From the IMG/VR virus record IMGVR_UViG_3300028829_004631, positions 1-30,050 of that record: a stretch of DNA of 30,050 nucleotides; one strand, given 5' to 3'. Below, in pieces: positions 179 to 19,462 of the stretch. A model generated the notes under the pieces. The model was given only the letters and a program-made list of their open reading frames with translations. It was not told the DNA's origin and made no database searches. Numbering within the stretch: position 1 is the first letter of the stretch; each line of letters opens with the position of its first letter. This DNA comes from a virus. Made by a program: the position numbers and the translations under genes.

Positions 179-954
179 TGCCGAGGAGAAAAAAATTCGA
201 AATAGACATTACTGGATTTGGGGAAGTCATTAGCTCTTTAAGTAAATTGTCTGGTGCTGGTTTTAAAAAAACAATTAAGGCAGAAATCGGTCACGTATTG
301 CACGCATCAATTAGAAGAACACCAATTGCAAGCACAGCAAAAATTATTGCCCGAACAATGCCTGAAGGATACAAAGTGCCGAAGCTAAGAGGTGTAGGAA
401 AACGATTAGTTACGCATTACAAAGGTCACATATACCACGCAGGGAAATTGATACGAGCACAAGATGGCGTTAAAGGTGGGTTTTATTATACTCGCCCAAA
501 TAATACGAAATTTCCTGGACAAAAATGGATGAATAAACCTTTGAAAGGTGGAGGATCAACACAAGAATGGGAAGTGTTTCTTGAAGAGCAAAGAAAAAAA
601 GTGTTAGAAAGAAACGCTAAGAAAGGGCTGTCAGCTGGAGTATTTTACGCAATGGCAAAAAAGGGAAAAATAGTATTTCCAAAAACTCCGAAAGGGAATA
701 AATTTATATCATCAAGCGAAGTTCAAAAAATGGCTCGAAGCTTTGTTAATGTTAGTGAAGTCGGACAATCTTATAATTATTCAATTTTACTAGAATCAAA
801 AAAATTAAATGTTGCGAAATACAATCAACTGCAAAACAAGCTTTTATTATCGACAGCCGGAAGAATTAAATATTTTACTAAGAATATGGAAAAAGGCTTC
901 ACAAAAGAAATCCAAAAACTGATGCCTAAAAGATACCCGTTAATTTTTACATGA
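178..954 (+). CDS. Putative HK97-gp10-like neck or minor tail protein
   Basis: A 258-aa basic protein of uncertain identity. The N-terminus (about residues 5-50, containing ITGFGEVISSLSKLSG and then an I-R-R-T-P stretch) resembles the start of HK97-gp10/lambda-Z type proteins that complete the neck or tail terminator. The middle is an unusual Lys- and Gly-rich insertion, so it is longer than the usual 130-190 aa of that family. It overlaps the terminase stop (TAATG) and the next gene (ATGA), which places it firmly in the head operon. In lambda the Z gene lies after FII, not next to the terminase, so the position is shifted if the assignment is right. The function is an inference from weak resemblance; the gene itself is certain. 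Confidence 0.5.
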   Translation: MPRRKKFEIDITGFGEVISSLSKLSGAGFKKTIKAEIGHVLHASIRRTPIASTAKIIARTMPEGYKVPKLRGVGKRLVTHYKGHIYHAGKLIRAQDGVKGGFYYTRPNNTKFPGQKWMNKPLKGGGSTQEWEVFLEEQRKKVLERNAKKGLSAGVFYAMAKKGKIVFPKTPKGNKFISSSEVQKMARSFVNVSEVGQSYNYSILLESKKLNVAKYNQLQNKLLLSTAGRIKYFTKNMEKGFTKEIQKLMPKRYPLIFT

Positions 955-1226
955 GCATTTACAGTTATAAGTCAGATGAAGAAAAGAAAACTTTTCTTGA
1001 AAAACGTATTCAGCGACTAGAGGCGACTTTAGAGCGACTTGAAACTATTGGCATGACTTCAATTTCATCAGCAGGTCAGTCAAAATCTTTTCGAAATCAA
1101 GAGGATATAAGAATGGAACTTGAAAGAGCTTACCGAGAGTATGAAATAATTAATGCTCGCATGAGCGACGATCCTATAAACCCAACATTTAAAGAAATAG
1201 TTGTATGCGACAGAAAACACTACTAG
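951..1226 (+). CDS. gpW-like head-tail joining protein
   Basis: A 91-aa protein with an N-terminal helical segment (residues 10-35, EKRIQRLEATLERLE), a short beta-like stretch (ISSAGQSKSFRNQ) and a second helix (about 52-70). This helix, hairpin, helix layout and the G-x-S-x-x-F-R pattern fit the gpW fold, which plugs the bottom of the portal and accepts the tail connector. Lambda W is 68 aa and also lies just before the portal gene B. Start and stop overlap both neighbours (ATGA with the upstream gene, 22 bp with the portal). The C-terminal 20 residues have no counterpart that I know of. Confidence 0.65.
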   Translation: MSIYSYKSDEEKKTFLEKRIQRLEATLERLETIGMTSISSAGQSKSFRNQEDIRMELERAYREYEIINARMSDDPINPTFKEIVVCDRKHY

Positions 1227-3025
1227 ATCAATACGGAAATAAAGTTGAGTTTGGTTATCAAGCAAGTCGACCATCCTGGCGAAAAAAAAATGATGCACTT
1301 GACCGGTCCTCTATTTTAGAAACTGAAGATAAAGTTTTATCTAAAGGAAATAGATTAGAATTACTTAGCACACTTCGAGATTTAGAAAGAAATAATCCGA
1401 TTTGTCGATCAATAGTTCAAGTTTTCATTTCAAACCTAGGCGCTTGCAATTTCAACTCAACATCGTCAAACGATATTTATAACGAAAAAAGGAACGATCT
1501 TTTCGCGAAATATTTTAAAAATTGCGAAGCAAGCGGGATGGGAATGCAAAAAGTGTTACAGCATATTATTGCAGACTTATTGCTTGCTGGAGAAGTTTTT
1601 ATTTTGTTAACTAAATCCGGATCCTTTCAATTATTGCCAAGTGAGAGAATTGCTTCAAGTTACAACTCGAACGAGCAAAAAACAAACGAAAACGATGGAA
1701 TAGTTTTATCAAAAACAGGCACGCCAATTAGTTATCGAATTGCCGGAATAAAAGACGGAGTAATTGATTTTAATAAAGGTACTTACGTTTCTGCAAATAA
1801 TATTATTCATATATCAAACAATATTAGAATAGGCCAAATGCGAGGCACGCCATTACTAGCAAGCGCTTGTAAAACTTTAGAAGATATTCATTCAGTTCAA
1901 ACAGCATACACTGCTAAAGTAAAAGTCAGCTCAGCGCTTACGGGTTTTATTACAAGCAACCAACCTTATTCTGCGCGATGGGATGGCAACGAATTTGAAG
2001 AAGAACCAGCACGATCAAATTACAAAAAACTTTATTCAGGTTCTTTGCTATTGTTAGAAAATGGAGAATCAGTGCAAACAATACAAGGAGGCGCAGTTGA
2101 TGGCGTTGATAATTTTTTGCTTCACTTAATTTCATTTGCTTGCTCATCAGTTGGAATAACAGTAGAAAACTTGGTCGGATGGTCAAACGCAAGCTTTAGC
2201 AGTTCAAAAGCAACTAGGGAAGTTACAAACCACAGATTTGGACAAGTTCGAGAAAACTTAGAGGATTCTTTTCTTAGAAGATTGTGCCGATGGAGAACCT
2301 ATAAATTTGAATCAACAGAGGAATTAGAACTAAGTGAAGAGCGAACTGAATACAATTTCAACTGGTCGAGATCGCCAACTTTAGACCGAAGGCAAGATGC
2401 TCAAACAGATAAAATTTTGCTTGAAAATAATTTAGCTTCTCATTCAAAAATCTTTGCAAACAACGGGCTAGACTTCAAGGAAGAATTAGATCAAATAGCA
2501 AAGGATCAGCAAATGCTAAATCAGGCATTAAACCCAGAGGTTAAAGTTAATCCTATTGCTGAATCCTTGGGCGGGCTGTCTCCTTTAGTTGCAACGAAAA
2601 TTTTAGACAGCATGACTGAAGACGAAGTTCGAGGATTAGTTGGGTTATCGTCAAAGCCAAAAGATGAGCCATTAACAGAGGAAGAACAAATTGAATTAGA
2701 GCAAGATATAGAATTGCTTAAATTTGAGTCATTTAACGATTACCCGGATTCAGCATCAAATAATGCTAAACGAGCAATTAAATATAAAGAAGAAAATGGA
2801 TCAAAGTGCGGAACTGCTGTAGGCTGGACTCGAGCTAGGCAGTTAGCAGAAAAAAAAAGTATTAGCAGAGAAACGATTGCGCGCATGGCAAGTTTTAAAA
2901 GACATCAGCAACACAAAGACGTTCCATATTCAGAAGGTTGTGGGGGAATTATGTGGGATGCCTGGGGAGGGACGTCTGGAGTTGAGTGGGCAATCAAAAA
3001 ACTAAAAGCAATTGATAAAAAATAA
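1205..3025 (+). CDS. Lambda-type portal protein with an extra C-terminal domain
   Basis: A 606-aa portal, the dodecameric ring through which DNA enters and leaves the head. Residues about 30-440 follow the lambda-B family: a run like LRDLERNNPICRSIVQVFIS, then the N-L-G-A region, a 'DLLLAGEVFILL' strand and a HISNNIRIGQMRGTP segment corresponding to the conserved I-H-x-x-x-x-x-R-x-G-Q-x-R-G of the family. Residues 512-606 form a separate module starting DYPDSASNNA, containing GSKCGTAVGW, ARMASFKRHQ and EGCGGIMWDAWGG, and ending in a Lys-rich helix. I have seen this kind of module on phage head proteins but cannot give it a function. The start overlaps the gpW-like gene by 22 bp. A terminator-like hairpin follows the gene. 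Confidence 0.9.
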   Translation: MRQKTLLDQYGNKVEFGYQASRPSWRKKNDALDRSSILETEDKVLSKGNRLELLSTLRDLERNNPICRSIVQVFISNLGACNFNSTSSNDIYNEKRNDLFAKYFKNCEASGMGMQKVLQHIIADLLLAGEVFILLTKSGSFQLLPSERIASSYNSNEQKTNENDGIVLSKTGTPISYRIAGIKDGVIDFNKGTYVSANNIIHISNNIRIGQMRGTPLLASACKTLEDIHSVQTAYTAKVKVSSALTGFITSNQPYSARWDGNEFEEEPARSNYKKLYSGSLLLLENGESVQTIQGGAVDGVDNFLLHLISFACSSVGITVENLVGWSNASFSSSKATREVTNHRFGQVRENLEDSFLRRLCRWRTYKFESTEELELSEERTEYNFNWSRSPTLDRRQDAQTDKILLENNLASHSKIFANNGLDFKEELDQIAKDQQMLNQALNPEVKVNPIAESLGGLSPLVATKILDSMTEDEVRGLVGLSSKPKDEPLTEEEQIELEQDIELLKFESFNDYPDSASNNAKRAIKYKEENGSKCGTAVGWTRARQLAEKKSISRETIARMASFKRHQQHKDVPYSEGCGGIMWDAWGGTSGVEWAIKKLKAIDKK

Positions 3026-4091: not shown

Positions 4092-4979
4092 ATGGCAAAT
4101 TCAATTACTTCAGAAATAACAATCTCAACAGCAGTTGAGACTCTCGGAAATATGTTGGCTCCTCTTAGTCAATTTACTTTAAATATTACCAACGATGTAG
4201 TTGGCAGACAAGCTAATGTAAAAGTTCCGATTGTGGATACTGATGACGTTGCTCGAGTTTATGATTCGACAAATGGATATACTGCTTCTTCCGATACAGA
4301 TGTTAGCACTGTTACCGTATCACTAAATGAACAGATTAAGCCTTTTCATTTAAACGATAATGACATGAATCAGTCACCTTTGACTATTCAAAATTATGCT
4401 AGGCAAAACGCAAACGAGTTTGGTCGTCATTTAATGGCGTTAGTATATACAGCAGTCCAGGGTGAAGTTGATACTACAGGCACAAAGTTAATAAACGAAA
4501 TATCTAAAGATGCGAGTGCAGTTGATTTAGCTACTATCAAATCGGTTCATGCGAGTTTAGATGCAAACGGAGCTAATCCTAATAGACATCTTTTATTAGG
4601 AGCAGGCGCTAGTAATAACTTGCTTCCAAGTTCAATCGAAACATTTGGAAATTCAGTTTTAGAACAAGGTAGATTTCAGCAATTATTTGGAATGGGCGTA
4701 TCTGTTACTAATGCACATGGCACACTAACATCAGGAGATGTTCATTCAGTTGCCTGTCCATCGGATGCTTTGATTATTGCTAATCGAGTACCTGACACAA
4801 GTGGATCCGCAACATTAGAAGAGTTTACGCCTTTCACAATTGAAGGTTTAGGAATCCAGTGTGCATACAGACGATTTTTTGATGCTGCTAAAGGTATTCA
4901 TTACGGTGCTTTTACTACAATTTTTGGAACTGCTGTAGCAAAACCTGCTCAAATGGTTGCAATAACCGAAGCAACATAA
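4092..4979 (+). CDS. Major capsid protein
   Basis: A 295-aa protein directly after the protease/scaffold gene, the standard place for the major capsid. It begins MANSITSEITISTAVETLG, runs through a beta-rich region (VGRQANVKVPIVDTDDVARV), and has the N-E-F-G-R-H-L-x-A-L helix and the loop-and-strand pattern (PFTIEGLGIQCAYRRFFD) found near the C-terminus of P22/HK97-fold coat proteins of many marine phages. It lacks the N-terminal delta domain of HK97, which agrees with a separate scaffold fused to the protease. The assignment rests on position, length and overall pattern rather than on an active site. Confidence 0.82.
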   Translation: MANSITSEITISTAVETLGNMLAPLSQFTLNITNDVVGRQANVKVPIVDTDDVARVYDSTNGYTASSDTDVSTVTVSLNEQIKPFHLNDNDMNQSPLTIQNYARQNANEFGRHLMALVYTAVQGEVDTTGTKLINEISKDASAVDLATIKSVHASLDANGANPNRHLLLGAGASNNLLPSSIETFGNSVLEQGRFQQLFGMGVSVTNAHGTLTSGDVHSVACPSDALIIANRVPDTSGSATLEEFTPFTIEGLGIQCAYRRFFDAAKGIHYGAFTTIFGTAVAKPAQMVAITEAT

Positions 4980-4983
4980 TCAG

Positions 4984-5673
4984 ATGTCTACAGTCAACAC
5001 AACGGGAATCTTCCCGAGCACAAAGTTTATTTCAACTAATTCATTAGGTGATCTACAAGAAGTAGTTGGTCAAGCTGAAGTGCCAAACATTGATGATACA
5101 CTTGTTCACGACGGAGTAACATATTCAGCAACAGGTGACTCTGGAATTTCGGTAACAATTACCGAAAACGCCTCTGCTGATTCCATTGCTTATAACTCAA
5201 CTTCAAAGATTCTTACAATTGAGTTGCAAAGTGGTGTCTCCTCAAGAACACAAAGCGAGATCGAAGCATTATATAGTGGCGCAGGCATCGATGTTACTGA
5301 TGCAGTACAAATTGCAGTAGCAAGTGGTGCAAGTAACTTATCTTCTACATTAACAGCAGAACCTTTAACAGGTGGTCAAGATTACGTGGCACCAACATCA
5401 GGTGACCTTGAAGCTAGTACAGACTACATCTTAATTAAGCGGGATGACTTATACGATTTGGCAGACAGCGAAAAGAATGATGGCAGAAAATTTATTTGGG
5501 GGATAATAAACAAAGCATCAGATGTCTGGGCAGGATTAGGCGATGCACCTGATAACCTTACCATTTCGAAAACCACACCTTCTTCTGTAGATAGTGGAAC
5601 AGCATTGCAACAGACTTACACTATTAAGGCTAAGTATGCAGTAAGTGGTTTGGACTTGAAGGACGAAGCTTAA
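4984..5673 (+). CDS. Putative capsid decoration or head-fibre protein
   Basis: A 229-aa Ser/Thr/Ala/Gly-rich, acidic protein with only a few charged clusters, starting 4 bp after the capsid gene ends. Residues about 40-125 form a beta-rich module (GVTYSATGDSGISVTITEN, then SKILTIELQSG, then VQIAVASGASNLS), and residues about 143-229 form a second module (DYILIKRDDLYDL, then GRKFIWGIINKASDVW, then TALQQTYTIKAKYAV). The position matches the decoration/FI region of lambda-like genomes. The C-terminal module is of a type I associate with phage structural proteins, but I cannot name it. The function is inferred from position and composition. Confidence 0.5.
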   Translation: MSTVNTTGIFPSTKFISTNSLGDLQEVVGQAEVPNIDDTLVHDGVTYSATGDSGISVTITENASADSIAYNSTSKILTIELQSGVSSRTQSEIEALYSGAGIDVTDAVQIAVASGASNLSSTLTAEPLTGGQDYVAPTSGDLEASTDYILIKRDDLYDLADSEKNDGRKFIWGIINKASDVWAGLGDAPDNLTISKTTPSSVDSGTALQQTYTIKAKYAVSGLDLKDEA

Positions 5674-5688
5674 ACACACACTTTGCCC

Positions 5689-7719
5689 ATGAACTTGGGT
5701 GAAGCCCTTGCACAGATCCTCCTCGCTGAGATTAATACCCTTGGCGAGGATGTTTTGTTTAGAAATAAACAATTTAAAGCACAAGTTAGTACAAGCGATC
5801 AGCTTAAAGCTATGGAAATTGGTGGTTATTTTGAAAATCAATCGCTACAAATTATATTTCCAAAATATACATTGATTAACCTGGCCTCGAGGCCAAGAAT
5901 AAATGAAGTAATCCAGGTACGTGGAAATGCTTTTAGAATACACTCGGTAAGAGTAATGGAATCTGAGCATGGTTACGATTTAACTACTGAGCTTATTCCG
6001 GACTATCCACTAATTGATAATGAAGGCGGGTTAATACCAAATCGACCAAGTGATATAAGTTCAATTATTACTTTAGGTAGACCAAAGGATGTTATAGCTG
6101 AAATTATAACTAAACCAAATAGCGTAAATGATGTGCAAACAGCAAGAGATCCACTTGCTCCAAGCGAAATTAATGCTGAAGCTAAATATATTGATTTATA
6201 TTTAATAGCAGGTCAGTCTAATGCACATGGTCATAGTGCTGTCATAGACCTATCAGAGGCTCAATCAAGCGACATAAGTGTAGGTTTTTATACATCATGG
6301 CACGAAAACACCTCTGACGCCACTACAGAGCAGTATTATACTAACTATAAAAGCTCGATGGTATTAGGAGAAACACGTGGCGAAGGAACATCATCAAGCT
6401 TAGACTCAAGTAACTTTGGAATTGAGTGGGGGTTTGCTAAGAAAATAGAAGAACTAAATACTGAATCAAGCGAAATTGGCATAATTAAATATGCTGTTGG
6501 TGCTAGTTCAATTGATGACTCGGCTTTATCTGATTGGGATTTAAATAAAGATAATGAATGCTGGCAAGGTTTAAAAAATACTTTAGCAAATGCAATAGCT
6601 ACTATTAAAGCAGAGGGTAAAAATGCAAGATGGAAAGGCTTAGTATGGTATCAAGGTGAAAGTAATTCCAACACACCTTCGTGGGAATATAAAGCAAAAT
6701 TAATAGAGCTAATATCAGCAATTGAAACAGAATTAGATATAGCAAGTTTATCTGCTGTATTTTGTGCTCCTGCAAGTGCAACTGGAACCGACCTACAAGT
6801 TAACAATGCTTTTACTAGTTTAGCGCGATCAAAGAACTTTTATAATTATATTAAAATATCTGAGTACCACGACGGAATAAATAACAACGTACACCTGTCT
6901 GCACAAAATATGTACGATGCAGGAATTGCAGTTGGTAATGCAATGGCATTAGCAGTAGCAAGTACTGCCACAGAAGTAGAGTTTTCGCCTGATGTAACGC
7001 AAACAAAGTTGTGGGTTGATGCAGATGACAGCACAATGATAACAGCAGATAGTACGACTAATGTATTAGAAAAAATTGTTTCTAAGTCTGATAATGTTGT
7101 TACCGATTTTTATCCACAAACCAATGACAGCAACCATACTCCGACTGTTATAGTAGAAGCTAATGCTATAGCAAATCGTAACTGCCTAACCTTTTCGGAT
7201 AACAGAGAATTTGTGCAATCTGATGGACAGATTAATATGACCAATAAAGTACAAGATTGGTTTATAGTAGCAAAGCCTAATATAAATCATAATCAGGATT
7301 CGATCTGGGCAACAGAATTAGGCAGAGCAATAACCCTAATTCCTCTAACAGGTAATTTGTTTAAATGGTATTATGGTGGGACCCCTGCTACTGATTCCTT
7401 TGCAACAACAGATCAAAGCGACCAACTTGGTTTATATCAAATAAGATGGCACACATCAGGCGATCACACAAGCACTTGGTTTAATGGCGTGCAAATTAAC
7501 TCACAAAGAGCATTTGGAGCAGATATATCTTTTGTAAAAATACAGCATCAGTTTATGGCTCAGTATGGAACTACACCACTTTACACTAATGATGGTAAGT
7601 TTTGTGAGGCAATTGCAACAACTGAATTAAGTAATCGTAAAAAGATTGAAGGGTATTTAGCTCACAAGTGGGGAATAACTTTGCCTATTAACCATGAGTA
7701 TAGATATTATGCTCCATAG
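5689..7719 (+). CDS. Head-tail connector-like domain fused to SASA/SGNH esterase and lectin-like domain
   Basis: A 676-aa modular protein. Residues 1-105 form a small beta domain (DVLFRNKQFKA, then NEVIQVRGNAFRIHSV) resembling lambda FII-type head-tail attachment proteins, and the gene sits in the FII position. Residues 115-165 are a linker with repeats such as NRPSDI, GRPKDV and PLAPSEI. Residues 168-425 are a carbohydrate O-acetylesterase domain (SASA, SGNH fold): nucleophile S177 in GQSNAHG, the NFGIE helix, GLVWYQGESN (318-326), and H402 in VHLSAQ. Residues about 430-676 are a Con-A/LamG-like lectin domain ending in KKIEGYLAHKWG. I infer deacetylation of capsule or O-antigen sugars. The ATG at 5689 is preferred over an in-frame TTG at 5683. 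The catalytic Asp expected three residues before H402 is Asn. Confidence 0.8.
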   Translation: MNLGEALAQILLAEINTLGEDVLFRNKQFKAQVSTSDQLKAMEIGGYFENQSLQIIFPKYTLINLASRPRINEVIQVRGNAFRIHSVRVMESEHGYDLTTELIPDYPLIDNEGGLIPNRPSDISSIITLGRPKDVIAEIITKPNSVNDVQTARDPLAPSEINAEAKYIDLYLIAGQSNAHGHSAVIDLSEAQSSDISVGFYTSWHENTSDATTEQYYTNYKSSMVLGETRGEGTSSSLDSSNFGIEWGFAKKIEELNTESSEIGIIKYAVGASSIDDSALSDWDLNKDNECWQGLKNTLANAIATIKAEGKNARWKGLVWYQGESNSNTPSWEYKAKLIELISAIETELDIASLSAVFCAPASATGTDLQVNNAFTSLARSKNFYNYIKISEYHDGINNNVHLSAQNMYDAGIAVGNAMALAVASTATEVEFSPDVTQTKLWVDADDSTMITADSTTNVLEKIVSKSDNVVTDFYPQTNDSNHTPTVIVEANAIANRNCLTFSDNREFVQSDGQINMTNKVQDWFIVAKPNINHNQDSIWATELGRAITLIPLTGNLFKWYYGGTPATDSFATTDQSDQLGLYQIRWHTSGDHTSTWFNGVQINSQRAFGADISFVKIQHQFMAQYGTTPLYTNDGKFCEAIATTELSNRKKIEGYLAHKWGITLPINHEYRYYAP

Positions 7720-7721
7720 TT

Positions 7722-8159
7722 ATGAGTAACTTTTTGCAATATGAAAAGAACATTGAAGACTTAATTGTAAGTCATTTTATAGCGAATGGGCTGGATTGTG
7801 TCAGGTCCGTTTCAATTGATAATCTTGGAGCTACAAATTGCCAAATCGTTTTAGAATATCAAGGCGCCTTAGATACACATCGCCAAATGATTGAAACTTT
7901 CCAGGAGTATGACCTTCACCAAGGGAATTTAATTATTCAGCTAACAACTTTCCGGGATAATAAAATAAACCACCATGAGCGAATGGGATTAGTAAGGAAG
8001 TTGATGCTTAACTCAAGTGTTGCATCAAATAAATCGATTTACGAAATATACGATTTAATGCCTGAATCAGTTACATTAGCACAAGACGGAGAAAATAATC
8101 TTGACCAAACTACTTTTTCCTATTCCATTAAATGGAAAGTTGATATTTCAAAAATTTAA
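7722..8159 (+). CDS. Putative tail terminator protein (gpU-like)
   Basis: A 145-aa protein between the connector region and the tail-tube candidate, which is where tail terminators (lambda U type) are found. It contains an alternating strand and helix pattern: VRSVSIDNLGATNCQIVLEYQG, LIIQLTTFRDNKINHHERMG, then a helix, and a closing strand FSYSIKWKVDIS. Such proteins form a hexameric ring that stops tube polymerisation and joins the tail to the head. It starts 2 bp after the preceding stop and has no Shine-Dalgarno sequence. The family assignment is inferred mainly from gene order. Confidence 0.55.
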   Translation: MSNFLQYEKNIEDLIVSHFIANGLDCVRSVSIDNLGATNCQIVLEYQGALDTHRQMIETFQEYDLHQGNLIIQLTTFRDNKINHHERMGLVRKLMLNSSVASNKSIYEIYDLMPESVTLAQDGENNLDQTTFSYSIKWKVDISKI

Positions 8160-8171
8160 AATTTACTTATT

Positions 8172-8528
8172 ATGGCAGTAACACAAGATGGCACAAATTA
8201 TTCTTTTGGTGGATTAGTAGTAACTATCAATGCAAACGAATATCTATTTCAAGAAATCTCAGTTTCGGAAGGCACGAATGTAATTGAGCTAGAAGGAACT
8301 GACGGAGATATTATTTCTCAGGTATTCGTTGGAAGACCAAGAGAAGCAAGCGGAACGGCAGTCGTTGAGAACGATACTAACCTTCTTAAAAGAGGTGATG
8401 AGTTTTCGTTCCAGGTTCACCCGACTGAATCTGATAACACTACCTTTCTTATTACTGATACATCAATTACCAAAAGTAATGGTGCCTTTTCAACGCAGAC
8501 TTTTTCTGCTAGAGCAAAGCTGAACTAA
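8172..8528 (+). CDS. Putative tail tube (major tail) protein
   Basis: A 118-aa, almost wholly beta-strand protein (FGGLVVTINANEYLFQEIS, SGTAVVENDTNLLKRG, STQTFSARAKLN) placed between the tail terminator and the tail assembly chaperone, as tube proteins are. The tube fold is a small beta sandwich, so size and composition fit, although most siphovirus tube proteins are longer (130-250 aa). No catalytic motif is visible. It overlaps the next gene by one base (TAATG). An alternative is a small tail-associated decoration protein; no other gene between 7722 and 9168 looks like a better tube candidate. Confidence 0.5.
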   Translation: MAVTQDGTNYSFGGLVVTINANEYLFQEISVSEGTNVIELEGTDGDIISQVFVGRPREASGTAVVENDTNLLKRGDEFSFQVHPTESDNTTFLITDTSITKSNGAFSTQTFSARAKLN

Positions 8529-14733: not shown

Positions 14734-15144
14734 ATGAACTTGGTTATTAATACAAGTGCTGATCCCACGAACTCACTTGTAGTTGGATTAGCAGATAACA
14801 ATACAGCAACACTTGATCCGATCTTTTTTGGTGATGTAATAAATGTAACTGCTATCTTTTCTAATGGCCTTGGAGATTATGCAGATTTTAGTGGCAGAAC
14901 AAATAATGTAATAAAAATAGGATTGGGAAATCCAAAAACTCGTTCGGAATTTTCTTCTGCCATTATGAGTTTCTCAGTTAACAAATATGAGTCTCAACTT
15001 AATATTGATACAACTGACCTGGACAATTACTTGACAGCAGACACAGCAGATTTATTTCTTGAGATTCAAATAAGTTACAGCAATCAAAACTGCGTAACTT
15101 TATGCCAAGTGCCAATTACGATTAGGGAGCAGATAATAGCATGA
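14734..15144 (+). CDS. Tail adaptor-like beta-domain protein (paralogue of the next gene's N-terminus)
   Basis: A 136-aa protein made of one domain: N-T-S-A-D-P-T-N near the start, then LDPIFFGDVINVTAIFSNG, SFSVNKYESQLNIDTTDLD and LFLEIQISYS. The same order of strands (L-x-P-[FI]-F-[FY]-x-D, a middle 'I-K-[IV]-x-[FL]-G' strand, then L-N-I-D-T) appears in residues 25-130 of the next protein, so the two are related. Domains of this kind act as the attachment end of baseplate/fibre proteins (BppU-like), so I infer a docking role. An ATG at 14726 in another frame opens only a 3-codon reading frame, so 14734 is the start. It overlaps the next gene by ATGA. Confidence 0.55.
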   Translation: MNLVINTSADPTNSLVVGLADNNTATLDPIFFGDVINVTAIFSNGLGDYADFSGRTNNVIKIGLGNPKTRSEFSSAIMSFSVNKYESQLNIDTTDLDNYLTADTADLFLEIQISYSNQNCVTLCQVPITIREQIIA

Positions 15145-17363
15145 AGTTATACCCAAATATAAATCAAAGTCCTTTATCAAACTTAAGTGTAAGCATTGAC
15201 AATACACAAAGCACGAGCTTATTGCCTTTTTTTTATAAAGACAAATTAACTTTAGAAGTATATTTGCACGATGGCGAAGGATCTTTTCCAAATGCTTATA
15301 GCGAGGCTGAGATTAAAGTAGCATTTGGCGATACAGCTAATGGTCATACGATTTTAGAAACTTATCAATTATTGCCAAACGAAACAAAAGCAACATTTAC
15401 TTTAAATATTGATACTGCTGAAATTGAATTAATTACCCGAGAAAAATTATCAAGCACTTTAAAATTTGAAATTCAAGTTACTAAAGGAAATATAACCAAA
15501 ACGTTGTCGCAATTTGATTCAATAATACGAAATCAATTCTTAAATATTGATGCTGTTGCAGATGTTGTACCATTTGCACCAGGTCAAGTTTTGGCAATTC
15601 TTGCAGTTATTCCATCAGTACCATCAGAAGTCAGCTCAAACACTACACCAACTGCTCCAAGCAACGTAGTAACAGCGACCGGAGAAACTGTGCCTTTAGC
15701 GCCAAGCGATGTAACTTCTGCCTATGAATCCGTTCCTGAGAATCCGTCTGACTTAATTGCAGAAATAGTAACTGCTCCTTTAGCAGTCGATTGGGTTATA
15801 TCTCAAAAAGGTGCTGAACCTGTTACCGAAGTATTAGCAACTGTGCTAACATCGACAGGGCCCACTGAGGTTACTGCAATTGATCTTTCAACTATTGCAC
15901 CACGAATGGCAAGATTTAGCTCTGCTGACATTGGCACAATACCATTAGAGCCAAGTGAACTTGCAGTCGATGTATCACCTTTAAAGCCACAAGATATTGA
16001 AACAGCAAGATCACCTGCTGAAATTTCCGACTTAATAGTATATGATTATGCTAACAGGCCTGCGGGTTGGCTTGGTGGACAGCCAAGTAATATAAGATCA
16101 ATTGAGTTATTTAAAGCAGGAGGTGAAGATGGAAGTGGTAAACCTACAGAAATATATGCTGTAAAATCTTTATCACGTACACCAAACGAACCTGAGCAAT
16201 ATTTTGGAAAAGCAATAACTGAAGTTGATGCAGAGCAATTAACGCCAAGCAACCCAACTTCAGTAACTTCTTACTATAATCCTTTTACGGTCGATCAATC
16301 AATAGATCCGATAACGCCTTTCACAAAAGTTATTAATGTATATGATCCTAACTATGGCTTTTATGAAGAGTCAAAATATTCGGGAGATGCACTAATGAAC
16401 TTTTTATCTTATGGTCGATCCACCGGAGGCAGATACCTTGAGCAAGTTGCAGGCAATAATAATTACTTAGCTTATGCAAACACAGGGAACATGGATGACG
16501 ATGAGATCATTTTTATTCATGCAAGCCGAAACGACGAAAAACTATATTATGCAGGCAACATCGAAGGTTATCACACGACGGAATGGCAGAACCCTACTGA
16601 TGCAGACTTGCGAACCAATACTTTTAACACAGACTTTTCTGCATATAAAACTTTTTATAATGCTAAAATAGCAAGTGGCAAAAAGCACAATGTTTATATT
16701 TTGGCACATCAACCTTGGAATGATTACAGATTTCCGAGTCGTGATGCTAACCTCACTTTTCAAAAGCATTTAGCAAAATGCGTTTATCACGATGCAGACA
16801 GGCTTTCAGACTATGGATGTTATGCAAAAATTATTCCATACTATTGGACCTGGGCAGTACAAAGCACTTTTACTAATTTGAACCATTATGGATGGCGTAA
16901 TATAAGCGAATGGCAAACAAGCATAATGGACTACCCGACTAATACTTCGCATTCTAGTTTCGCACTTGACTCAACTTCTTATAGTCCTAGTCCTCCTCAA
17001 AAAGGTTATTGGGAATATGATTTAAGTAACGCATCATGGTTAGGCTTAGGCATTGAATGGTCCTGGGGTCTTAATGCTAATGCAAACAGAACTACAGGTT
17101 CATTTAGGCAAGAATATAGTTCTGATGGAACTGATGCAGGATACATCACAGGTTATGGATATGTTATGTCTAAAGAAAAGATGCAAGTTTTGCCACAGCT
17201 TGGTCATCCTAATCATTATGCACTTTTAGGAATAGACAAACTCTGGGTACGTTACAAGTATGTATCAAGTGATCCTAACCATGCAGATGTTGTCGGGCCT
17301 TGGGTTGAATCAGAAGGAAGAATGCCCACCAACCCATATCAATTAATTAGCAGATCAATATGA
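15141..17363 (+). CDS. Modular tail fibre or baseplate protein: adaptor domain, Pro-rich linker, unknown C-terminal domain
   Basis: A 740-aa protein. Residues 1-135 are the adaptor-like beta domain shared with the preceding protein. Residues 140-310 are a low-complexity linker with a recurring P-x-x-P-S-[DEN]-[VIL] unit (PSVPSEV, PTAPSNV, PLAPSDV, PENPSDL, PLEPSEL). Residues 310-740 are a large C-terminal domain rich in Tyr, Trp and Asn (GRSTGGRYLEQ, DDDEIIFIHASRNDEKL, VYILAHQPWNDYR, GHPNHYALLGIDKLW). The His-Pro-Asn motif near the end recalls SGNH enzymes, but no convincing Ser or Asp partner is visible. I infer a receptor-binding or polysaccharide-directed role. It is coupled to both neighbours by ATGA. 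Confidence 0.6.
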   Translation: MKLYPNINQSPLSNLSVSIDNTQSTSLLPFFYKDKLTLEVYLHDGEGSFPNAYSEAEIKVAFGDTANGHTILETYQLLPNETKATFTLNIDTAEIELITREKLSSTLKFEIQVTKGNITKTLSQFDSIIRNQFLNIDAVADVVPFAPGQVLAILAVIPSVPSEVSSNTTPTAPSNVVTATGETVPLAPSDVTSAYESVPENPSDLIAEIVTAPLAVDWVISQKGAEPVTEVLATVLTSTGPTEVTAIDLSTIAPRMARFSSADIGTIPLEPSELAVDVSPLKPQDIETARSPAEISDLIVYDYANRPAGWLGGQPSNIRSIELFKAGGEDGSGKPTEIYAVKSLSRTPNEPEQYFGKAITEVDAEQLTPSNPTSVTSYYNPFTVDQSIDPITPFTKVINVYDPNYGFYEESKYSGDALMNFLSYGRSTGGRYLEQVAGNNNYLAYANTGNMDDDEIIFIHASRNDEKLYYAGNIEGYHTTEWQNPTDADLRTNTFNTDFSAYKTFYNAKIASGKKHNVYILAHQPWNDYRFPSRDANLTFQKHLAKCVYHDADRLSDYGCYAKIIPYYWTWAVQSTFTNLNHYGWRNISEWQTSIMDYPTNTSHSSFALDSTSYSPSPPQKGYWEYDLSNASWLGLGIEWSWGLNANANRTTGSFRQEYSSDGTDAGYITGYGYVMSKEKMQVLPQLGHPNHYALLGIDKLWVRYKYVSSDPNHADVVGPWVESEGRMPTNPYQLISRSI

Positions 17364-19462
17364 ACAAAATAAAAACCGAGTTTATTGATGACTCAGCTAA
17401 CGAAGACGGATTTAAATTGTCGTCAAATGATATTAGTTACAAACCAAATGGATTTAATATTTATTCTTTCAAATATAAAAACGAAACATACACTAGAACA
17501 AATACCAATACTGCCACAGCGTACGGACAGAAGCACGGTGGTTTATTTTGGAATGGAAATTATATCCAACACGACGGGAGTCAAATAAAGCAAAAAGAAA
17601 TATATTTTGCAACTTATGTTGTCGTGCCTGACGGTAATTTTACGGGAACCTGGACGATGGATGAGTTTTTTGTTAATGCTTCAAATAATGGTCAATACAG
17701 AGCAGAGCAAATTGACTTACAAAATACCTTTTCAAATTTATGGGATGGCTTTACGCAGTCACCAATTTCTGAAATTGTACTTGATAGCCCGACCGAAACA
17801 GAAATTGGCAGAATAACAAATAGTGGCGCAAGATGGCTTGAGGCTAATACTTATCTTTTATCTAGTAATTCTATACAAAAAAATAGAACAGGCGAAACCT
17901 TTAAATTAATTTCTAAAGTTAGCAGAGGTAATCGTTTTTATAATATAAGAGCTTTTAACGACATCGGAGAAAGCAATCCCGCTGAGTATGATAAAGCATC
18001 AGTATATGACAGGCACGACGTCATTTTATATATTGGTGATGAAAATGTAATAGGCTCAGGCACAACAACTAATTTAGTTAACTATGAAGGCAAATCTGTT
18101 GACACTTTAGACCAGCAAATTCCGGAAGTATTATATCGCAACTTTGAAGACGATGGAAATGGTGGATTTACCTCAGACGGTTGGCAATTAACTGACTTTG
18201 ATAATGAAGCTAATTTTGGTGCTGAAGTAAGTATGCTTGATTATTTACAGAAAAGAAAAATTCGTGGCACATCATTGTGGAAAATGGGAATAAGCGGATC
18301 AAAGCTCGATGTTGAGTTTAGTGCAAATGGTCGCGCGATTAATTATATATCTGCAAACATTGCAACACAGGTCGATTCGCTACTAAATCAATATGTGCAA
18401 GGCAGAGTCGCAATGGCTATTATTCAAGTAGGCATGGATGATTCCGCAACTGATATAGTTGATGTAATAAAAGAAACACTAAGTCAAGTTCGCATAGCTA
18501 CTAATCGAAAGGAGTTGCCAATATTATTAACTGTAACCCAGGGCGATCAAACAGACTCGAGTTTAGTTGGTGCTTGGTTAAATGAAATAGCAAATCAAGA
18601 TGTGTTTACTCATGCAATTCAAACAAATGATTTACTTAGGGAAACTGACAATAGAACTTTAACTGATGAGTCGCTAATAACATTAGGCGAAAGATATGCT
18701 ACTTTTGCAGTACCATTGCTACAAGGCAATTTAGATGTCAGCGCTTATGAACCTGTTGTCTGGATTGATCCGACTGATTTGAATTTTCAGCAATCTGGAG
18801 AACTTTCACAAATAACAAATAAAGGAAGTGGAGTTAGGTTTAAAGCATCAACAGAGCAATTGGCAGTTAGTGGAGCTACAATAAATGACCTAAATGCCAT
18901 CGACTTTGATATATCAGATCATTATGAATATGATGACTTCCATCCATGGGGAGTAAAAAACGATATTATTGAAGAAGCAGAATTATTTTTTGTCCTTAAA
19001 AGTCAGTCAAAAGAAAAAGCAAATTTATTCTTAAGTGGTGGCTCTTGGGATGCAAATGAAAGGTTTTTAGCCCATACGCCTTGGGATGCTGGGCATATTG
19101 TTTTTGATTGTGGAATAAGAGAGACAAGAGTAACTAGTCAAAATGAATATGTCTTTGAAGATGGCGAAATAATTATTCTTGGATTAACAACTTCAAAAAC
19201 TGAAAACCTTATTCAGATGACCATAAATGGCAAAATTGTAGATTCAGTATTTGCATACGGAGGCACTTGCAAAATTGGTTCAAACTTTAAATTAAATAGC
19301 ACAAACAACACAGGTCAAAATGTAATCATGGGAGAGGCGTTAATGTTTAGTAACAATATTGGACTTGACAATCGACGCAAAATTGAAGGATATTTAAGCC
19401 ATAAATGGAACATTCCTTTGCATAATTCTCATCAGTTCGCAGACATTGCACCAACCAATTAA
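17360..19462 (+). CDS. Tail tip protein with a degenerate SASA-like domain and lectin-like domain
   Basis: A 700-aa protein. The N-terminal 215 residues contain FN3-like pieces (TEFIDDSANEDGFKL at 6-20; RFYNIRAFNDIGESNP at 192-207). Residues 218-455 match the esterase domain of the 5689-7719 protein in order: DVILYIGDENVIGSG (220-234) against its DLYLIAGQSNAHG, NFGAEVSML against NFGIEWGFA, and MGISGSKLD against AVGASSIDD. The catalytic Ser position is Glu (E228), the W-Y-Q-G-E-S-N motif is lost and the catalytic His is absent, so it should be inactive. Residues 462-700 are a Con-A/LamG-like domain ending in RRKIEGYLSHKWN, the same as in the other protein. I infer a sugar-binding role without catalysis. 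Confidence 0.68.
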   Translation: MNKIKTEFIDDSANEDGFKLSSNDISYKPNGFNIYSFKYKNETYTRTNTNTATAYGQKHGGLFWNGNYIQHDGSQIKQKEIYFATYVVVPDGNFTGTWTMDEFFVNASNNGQYRAEQIDLQNTFSNLWDGFTQSPISEIVLDSPTETEIGRITNSGARWLEANTYLLSSNSIQKNRTGETFKLISKVSRGNRFYNIRAFNDIGESNPAEYDKASVYDRHDVILYIGDENVIGSGTTTNLVNYEGKSVDTLDQQIPEVLYRNFEDDGNGGFTSDGWQLTDFDNEANFGAEVSMLDYLQKRKIRGTSLWKMGISGSKLDVEFSANGRAINYISANIATQVDSLLNQYVQGRVAMAIIQVGMDDSATDIVDVIKETLSQVRIATNRKELPILLTVTQGDQTDSSLVGAWLNEIANQDVFTHAIQTNDLLRETDNRTLTDESLITLGERYATFAVPLLQGNLDVSAYEPVVWIDPTDLNFQQSGELSQITNKGSGVRFKASTEQLAVSGATINDLNAIDFDISDHYEYDDFHPWGVKNDIIEEAELFFVLKSQSKEKANLFLSGGSWDANERFLAHTPWDAGHIVFDCGIRETRVTSQNEYVFEDGEIIILGLTTSKTENLIQMTINGKIVDSVFAYGGTCKIGSNFKLNSTNNTGQNVIMGEALMFSNNIGLDNRRKIEGYLSHKWNIPLHNSHQFADIAPTN

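Follow-up and report, generated by a model that had tools for sequence, protein, structure and literature searches.

The stretch of DNA under analysis, here called the window, comprises the full 30,050 nt of IMG/VR record IMGVR_UViG_3300028829_004631 (positions 1 to 30,050). It bears a terminal direct repeat of 144 bases, and its end falls within the terminase gene. Because of this repeat, the record is probably a complete genome of roughly 30 kb. Between the capsid gene and the first tail genes lies a single unbroken reading frame that joins a candidate head-closure (stopper) domain to a linker, a putative carbohydrate esterase and a LamG-type domain. Its ATG at 5689 lines up with the start methionine of related proteins, and an alternative TTG start is located six bases upstream. 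Related viral records and contigs compared with the window are designated by L-numbers (L002, L003, L084, L093 and so on). The relevant features are the following:

951..1226, plus strand: small 91-aa protein just upstream of the portal gene, in the position of lambda adaptor gpW (placed by position, from lambda synteny)
4092..4979, plus strand: major capsid protein (phrog_283, E=1.4e-7)
4984-5673: gene for a 229-aa protein in the capsid-stopper interval, 15 bases upstream of the fusion gene
5689..7719, plus strand: whole fusion gene, stopper-linker-esterase-LamG, 676 aa, predicted 74.9 kDa
5689..6006, plus strand: candidate stopper (head-closure) domain, residues 1 to ~106 (AF2 model, Foldseek and VIA-align matches, free-standing homologue)
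6007..6189, plus strand: proline-punctuated linker of ~61 aa, residues ~107-167 (from sequence)
6190..6970, plus strand: putative SASA/SGNH carbohydrate O-acetylesterase domain (PF03629 and motif check)
6217-6219 and 6892-6894, plus strand: esterase motif residues Ser177 (GQSN) and His402 (VH), with QGES at residues 322-325 between them
6991..7716, plus strand: LamG/concanavalin-A-like C-terminal domain with the motif KIEGYLAHKWG (alignment to relatives)
7722..8159, plus strand: 145-aa protein in the tail-terminator position (by position and alignment)
8172..8528, plus strand: gene in the position of the major tail (tail-tube) protein (by position; conserved among relatives)

The fusion gene is followed, after a gap of two bases, by the terminator-position gene; genes in the tail-tube and chaperone positions and the tape measure gene come next, and the whole order resembles lambda W-B-C-D-E-FI-FII-Z-U-V. 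A family search with the terminator-position protein gave nothing above threshold, and the hhalign match between gpW and the protein in its position was not significant. The 229-aa protein, which ranges from 229 to 343 aa among relatives and is absent from L084 and L085, had no convincing match in a family search and is possibly an accessory of the head or neck. The portal protein (window 1205-3025) ends in a domain of ~100 aa (residues ~505-606) that retains ~70-86% identity in most of 80 viral loci kept from at least 595 relatives and ~35-50% in haloarchaeal viruses and some large phages; it has no Pfam match. A tblastn search of 50,697 phage genomes with the fusion, the major capsid protein (MCP) and the major-tail-protein-position protein returned zero matches. 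With the MCP and the portal as queries, no prophage was found among GTDB genomes.

A candidate stopper domain at the N-terminus

The initial annotation placed the gene in the FII (connector) position and took residues 1 to ~105 for a small connector beta domain. Both statements are supported: the gene lies between the capsid and terminator-position genes, and the nearest solved structures to the predicted model of this region are stopper or head-closure proteins, lambda gpFII among them. The model (AF2; pLDDT 88.8, pTM 0.81) was built, as was the alignment of the domain, from nine syntenic homologues, a shallow set, and consists of an N-terminal helix followed by a beta-sandwich. The hallmarks of the stopper fold, N-terminal helix and beta-sandwich with an inserted hairpin, are thus recognizable; in the monomer model a short helix and a loop take the place of the inserted hairpin. 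Foldseek against the PDB ranked the stopper of R4C first (E 8e-4) and the lambda neck second (2.7e-3), then the Pam3 neck and a Gifsy-type gpFII-like protein, with the T1 stopper, GTA and the SPP1 connector lower. In VIA-align, rows 1-27 are all phage neck or connector proteins or phage-related proteins of head-closure type (Z 10.1 to 6.5), T4 neck (gp13/gp14), XM1, T1, R4C, Pam3 and lambda scoring 8.6-10.1; the first unrelated folds appear at Z ~6.2. Among the BFVD matches are some whose names refer to head-tail joining or attachment.

At the sequence level, an hhalign comparison of the shallow alignment with a single gpFII was not significant (E 0.21), PF05354 gave one sub-threshold match (E 0.24) among the nine members of the same shallow alignment, and a PDB sequence search with the domain profile found nothing relevant. 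Assignment to the stopper family rests on fold and synteny. In L084 and L085 a free-standing homologue of 106 aa is encoded immediately downstream of the capsid gene, with the terminator-position gene behind it, and therefore the N-terminal region can be regarded as a distinct domain. No second stopper candidate was found in these two records between capsid and tail tube. The domain profile matches exactly once per genome in eight related records, in the interval between the capsid and the terminator, the latter assigned by position. Given this single copy and the stand-alone versions in the neck slot, the modelled N-domain should be a working stopper.

Linker, putative esterase and LamG-like domains and their probable exchange among relatives

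The rest of the earlier description, a proline-rich linker, a SASA/SGNH O-acetylesterase with S177 and H402 and a Con-A/LamG-like end, was also confirmed in outline. Seven prolines (107, 117, 120, 132, 143, 155 and 158) punctuate the linker, which would reach at most ~22 nm when fully extended; L003 and L004 have longer linkers of the same style. Proline stretches of the same PSEV/APSN type occur in a 740-aa tail-region protein of the window (15141-17363). Pfam SASA (PF03629) covers residues 169-419 with E=5.3e-21 and 75.7 bits (cutoff 24.8). Both the block I nucleophile serine (S177) and the block V catalytic histidine (H402) are present. For the third residue of the SGNH triad, the window has Asn399 and Asn400 (H-3 and H-2) ahead of H402, while L093 has an Asp at H-2. 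The C-terminal ~240 aa were recognized as LamG-like by alignment to relatives ending in the same KIEGYLAHKWG motif, one of which matches Pfam Laminin_G_3 (PF13385) with E=0.0014; the window protein itself gave no Pfam LamG match. AF2 modelled the full-length protein poorly (pLDDT 44), so the folds of the esterase and LamG regions are assigned from sequence profiles. GC content of the esterase and LamG regions is 0.36-0.37 against 0.357 for the genome, and base composition does not indicate recent import of the cassette.

A gene in the tail-tip region (window 17360-19462) encodes a degenerate SGNH domain, sub-threshold for Pfam SASA and with GDEN replacing GQSN, followed by a LamG-like end; it looks like a second, inactive cassette of this type, borne at the opposite end of the tail.

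The same gene slot holds three architectures. The stopper stands alone in L084 and L085, is joined through a linker to LamG in four relatives (L003, L004, L094 and L096), and carries, behind a linker, both SASA and LamG in the window and L093, and in L087 as far as the contig end; L002 encodes a protein identical to that of the window. The fusion thus occurs, as the initial annotation suggested looking for, in independent related viruses, and the esterase is optional in this slot. In a tree of capsid proteins the window groups with L087, L003 and L004 at 93/97, just below the strong-support mark, and L093 falls outside. Because this group mixes stoppers with and without esterase, more than one gain or loss of the cassette is probable.

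The SASA-LamG pair is also present in ~28 other viral contigs, on proteins resembling tail fibres or associated with the virion in other ways, behind N-termini of fibre type (collagen-like GxDG stretches, other leaders) and, in L101, behind a short proline-rich leader alone; none of the other SASA-LamG proteins (contigs L103-L131) matches the stopper profile. In the LamG tree the window is sister to L101 (100/100), and L093 falls with LamG domains of fibres, which suggests that recruitment of cassettes onto the neck was at least partly separate in the two viruses. With such different nearest kin, the C-terminal end of the stopper seems to act as a platform for exchange. On balance, we favour a wider version of this view, in which the stopper C-terminus would be a general display platform of the virus group, where the neck ring acquires, by exchange, enzymes and lectins of tail-fibre-type genes (or, in L084 and L085, the terminator acquires a linker), giving a second, neck-borne set of glycan-processing proteins.

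The terminator-position proteins of L084 (5234-5974) and L085 (5452-5976), the two records with a cassette-free stopper, contain a similar proline-rich linker of APSN type, to which L084 adds a small domain at the C-terminus, as though the next ring had taken over the decoration of the neck. A metallophosphoesterase-like gene, with weak NCBIfam matches, lies between the terminator- and tail-tube-position genes at L084:5984-6718, L085:5987-6721 and L093:12518-13252.

A proposed enzymatic whisker of the phage neck

We propose, with a probability of about 0.78, that in a siphovirus-like phage the fusion serves as head-closure (stopper) protein and is equipped with a C-terminal enzyme/adhesin cassette that gives ~6 neck whiskers able to bind and deacetylate glycans. 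Its location in the neck we infer from fold and gene position; a hexameric state, outward display, enzymatic activity, a polysaccharide target and a benefit to the virion we presume. The N-domain would form a hexameric stopper ring with the adaptor on one side and the tail terminator on the other. In the gpFII hexamer of lambda, the helices at the N-termini grip the adaptor barrel, and the hairpin and C-terminal loop touch the terminator (PMC10721106). Stopper termini of phage 812 contact decoration proteins on the outer surface of the neck (PMC12886913), and therefore a C-terminal extension of a stopper can exit outward. The C-terminus of the fusion protein would leave the ring in this direction through the flexible proline-rich linker, which would hold the SASA/SGNH O-acetylesterase and then the glycan-binding LamG-type domain. 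Twelve or six copies had been suggested earlier. By analogy with lambda, whose gpFII is a hexamer (PMC10721106), six is the most likely number and twelve is not, so that about six esterase-lectin units would surround the neck on ~61-residue linkers. The most likely target of such whiskers would be acetylated polysaccharide, on surfaces or extracellular, which they would bind and strip of its O-acetyl groups. This would help the particle to linger on capsule, slime or debris, or to cross them, as an accessory to the receptor binders of the tail tip.

The enzyme might instead reside at the tail tip, as usual, with the stopper-like fold reused as the anchor of a tail-tip or tail-fibre protein. 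Weaker structural matches to tail hub proteins (3gs9, 9j1k, 6v8i) and the occurrence of the SASA-LamG pair on tail-fibre-like proteins speak for this arrangement. However, hub-type domains score only Z ~5-5.6 in VIA-align against 8-10 for most stoppers, the gene lies in the neck module and outside the tail-tip module, the free 106-aa homologue occupies the sole stopper slot of L084 and L085, and the phage has tail-tip genes of its own, one of them LamG-ended. The N-domain does not appear to be a fibre anchor, and its homologues belong to the neck module, contrary to the two objections raised in advance by the initial annotation, and we regard a tail-tip location as improbable. Still less credit can be given to an assembly or sequencing artefact, practically negligible in view of the identical protein in the second record L002 and the same architecture in the diverged L093 and L087; an assembly chimera is ruled out by these independent records.

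Two further readings leave the protein at the neck and concern what the cassette does. It could be a structural or binding whisker with an inactive esterase, since SASA-less relatives indicate that the esterase is dispensable, the tail-tip SGNH domain of the same phage has lost the GQSN serine, and no clear catalytic Asp is found near H402. Against this, GQSN, QGES and VH are all intact in both the window and L093 at only 54% identity, and E. coli NanS is active without a catalytic Asp, using Ser19 and His301 (PMC9063846); we consider loss of activity unlikely. Somewhat less doubtful, and still a minority view, is that the neck enzyme serves adsorption less than the release and dispersal of virions after lysis, detaching them from acetylated slime or debris; distance from the tail tip would suit such a non-injection role.

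If the fusion protein is a stopper with whiskers, as we prefer, its known counterparts each share a part of the design. It has the predicted fold, gene position and N-terminal helix plus beta-sandwich in common with lambda gpFII and the PF05354-like head-closure family; gpFII, however, has 117 aa and no cargo, against 676 aa here, and sequence similarity is not significant. The lactococcal neck passage structure (NPS) of TP901-1 and 936 phages is likewise elongated, neck-anchored and variably present between relatives, according to the accessible text of two reports (PMC10747895, PMC4759559), which describes carbohydrate-binding modules at the end of TP901-1 NPS (PMC10747895) and whiskers of unknown function formed by NPS of 936 phages (PMC4759559). 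As presented there, NPS differs in being a separate protein with its own collar-forming N-terminal domain, unfused to the stopper, and that text mentions no esterase as part of it; the fusion protein, which starts with a stopper domain, is not an NPS and may work like one. Whiskers of T4 (wac), collar spikes of XM1 and neck decoration of phage 812 are neck appendages too (PMC10491603, PMC12886913), but they are separate proteins, and the ring protein bears no fused enzyme or lectin. The tail-fibre-like proteins of L103-L131 show the same order of esterase and LamG-type end behind fibre-type, collagen-like or other N-termini. Cyanophage KBS-S-2A has a gene for a LamG-like virion structural protein directly before its head-closure gene (CPKG_00053 / CPKG_00054), two separate genes with no esterase, and presents an unfused counterpart of the fusion.

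No enzyme fused into a stopper was found in the collection of 50,697 phage genomes or in the open-access papers searched, and open-access searches on collar plus acetylesterase plus head-tail and on head-tail connector plus lectin domain yielded none. The earlier impression that no common phage has this layout stands for the collections searched, with the correction that neck-borne adhesins are known (PMC4759559, PMC10747895). Those adhesins are separate proteins.

In long-tailed phages the stopper ring is a small component of the core structure. Here a relative of it bears a C-terminal load of 62 kDa, exchanged between lineages, and its enzymes are probably arranged around the neck, ~6 per virion, instead of at the tail tip alone. 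This suggests a natural display site for ~6 enzymes on each virion. It also offers a concrete gene for testing the role of neck whiskers, a question that is open for lactococcal NPS (PMC4759559), and indicates that evolution can make the neck a site of interaction with hosts or glycans.
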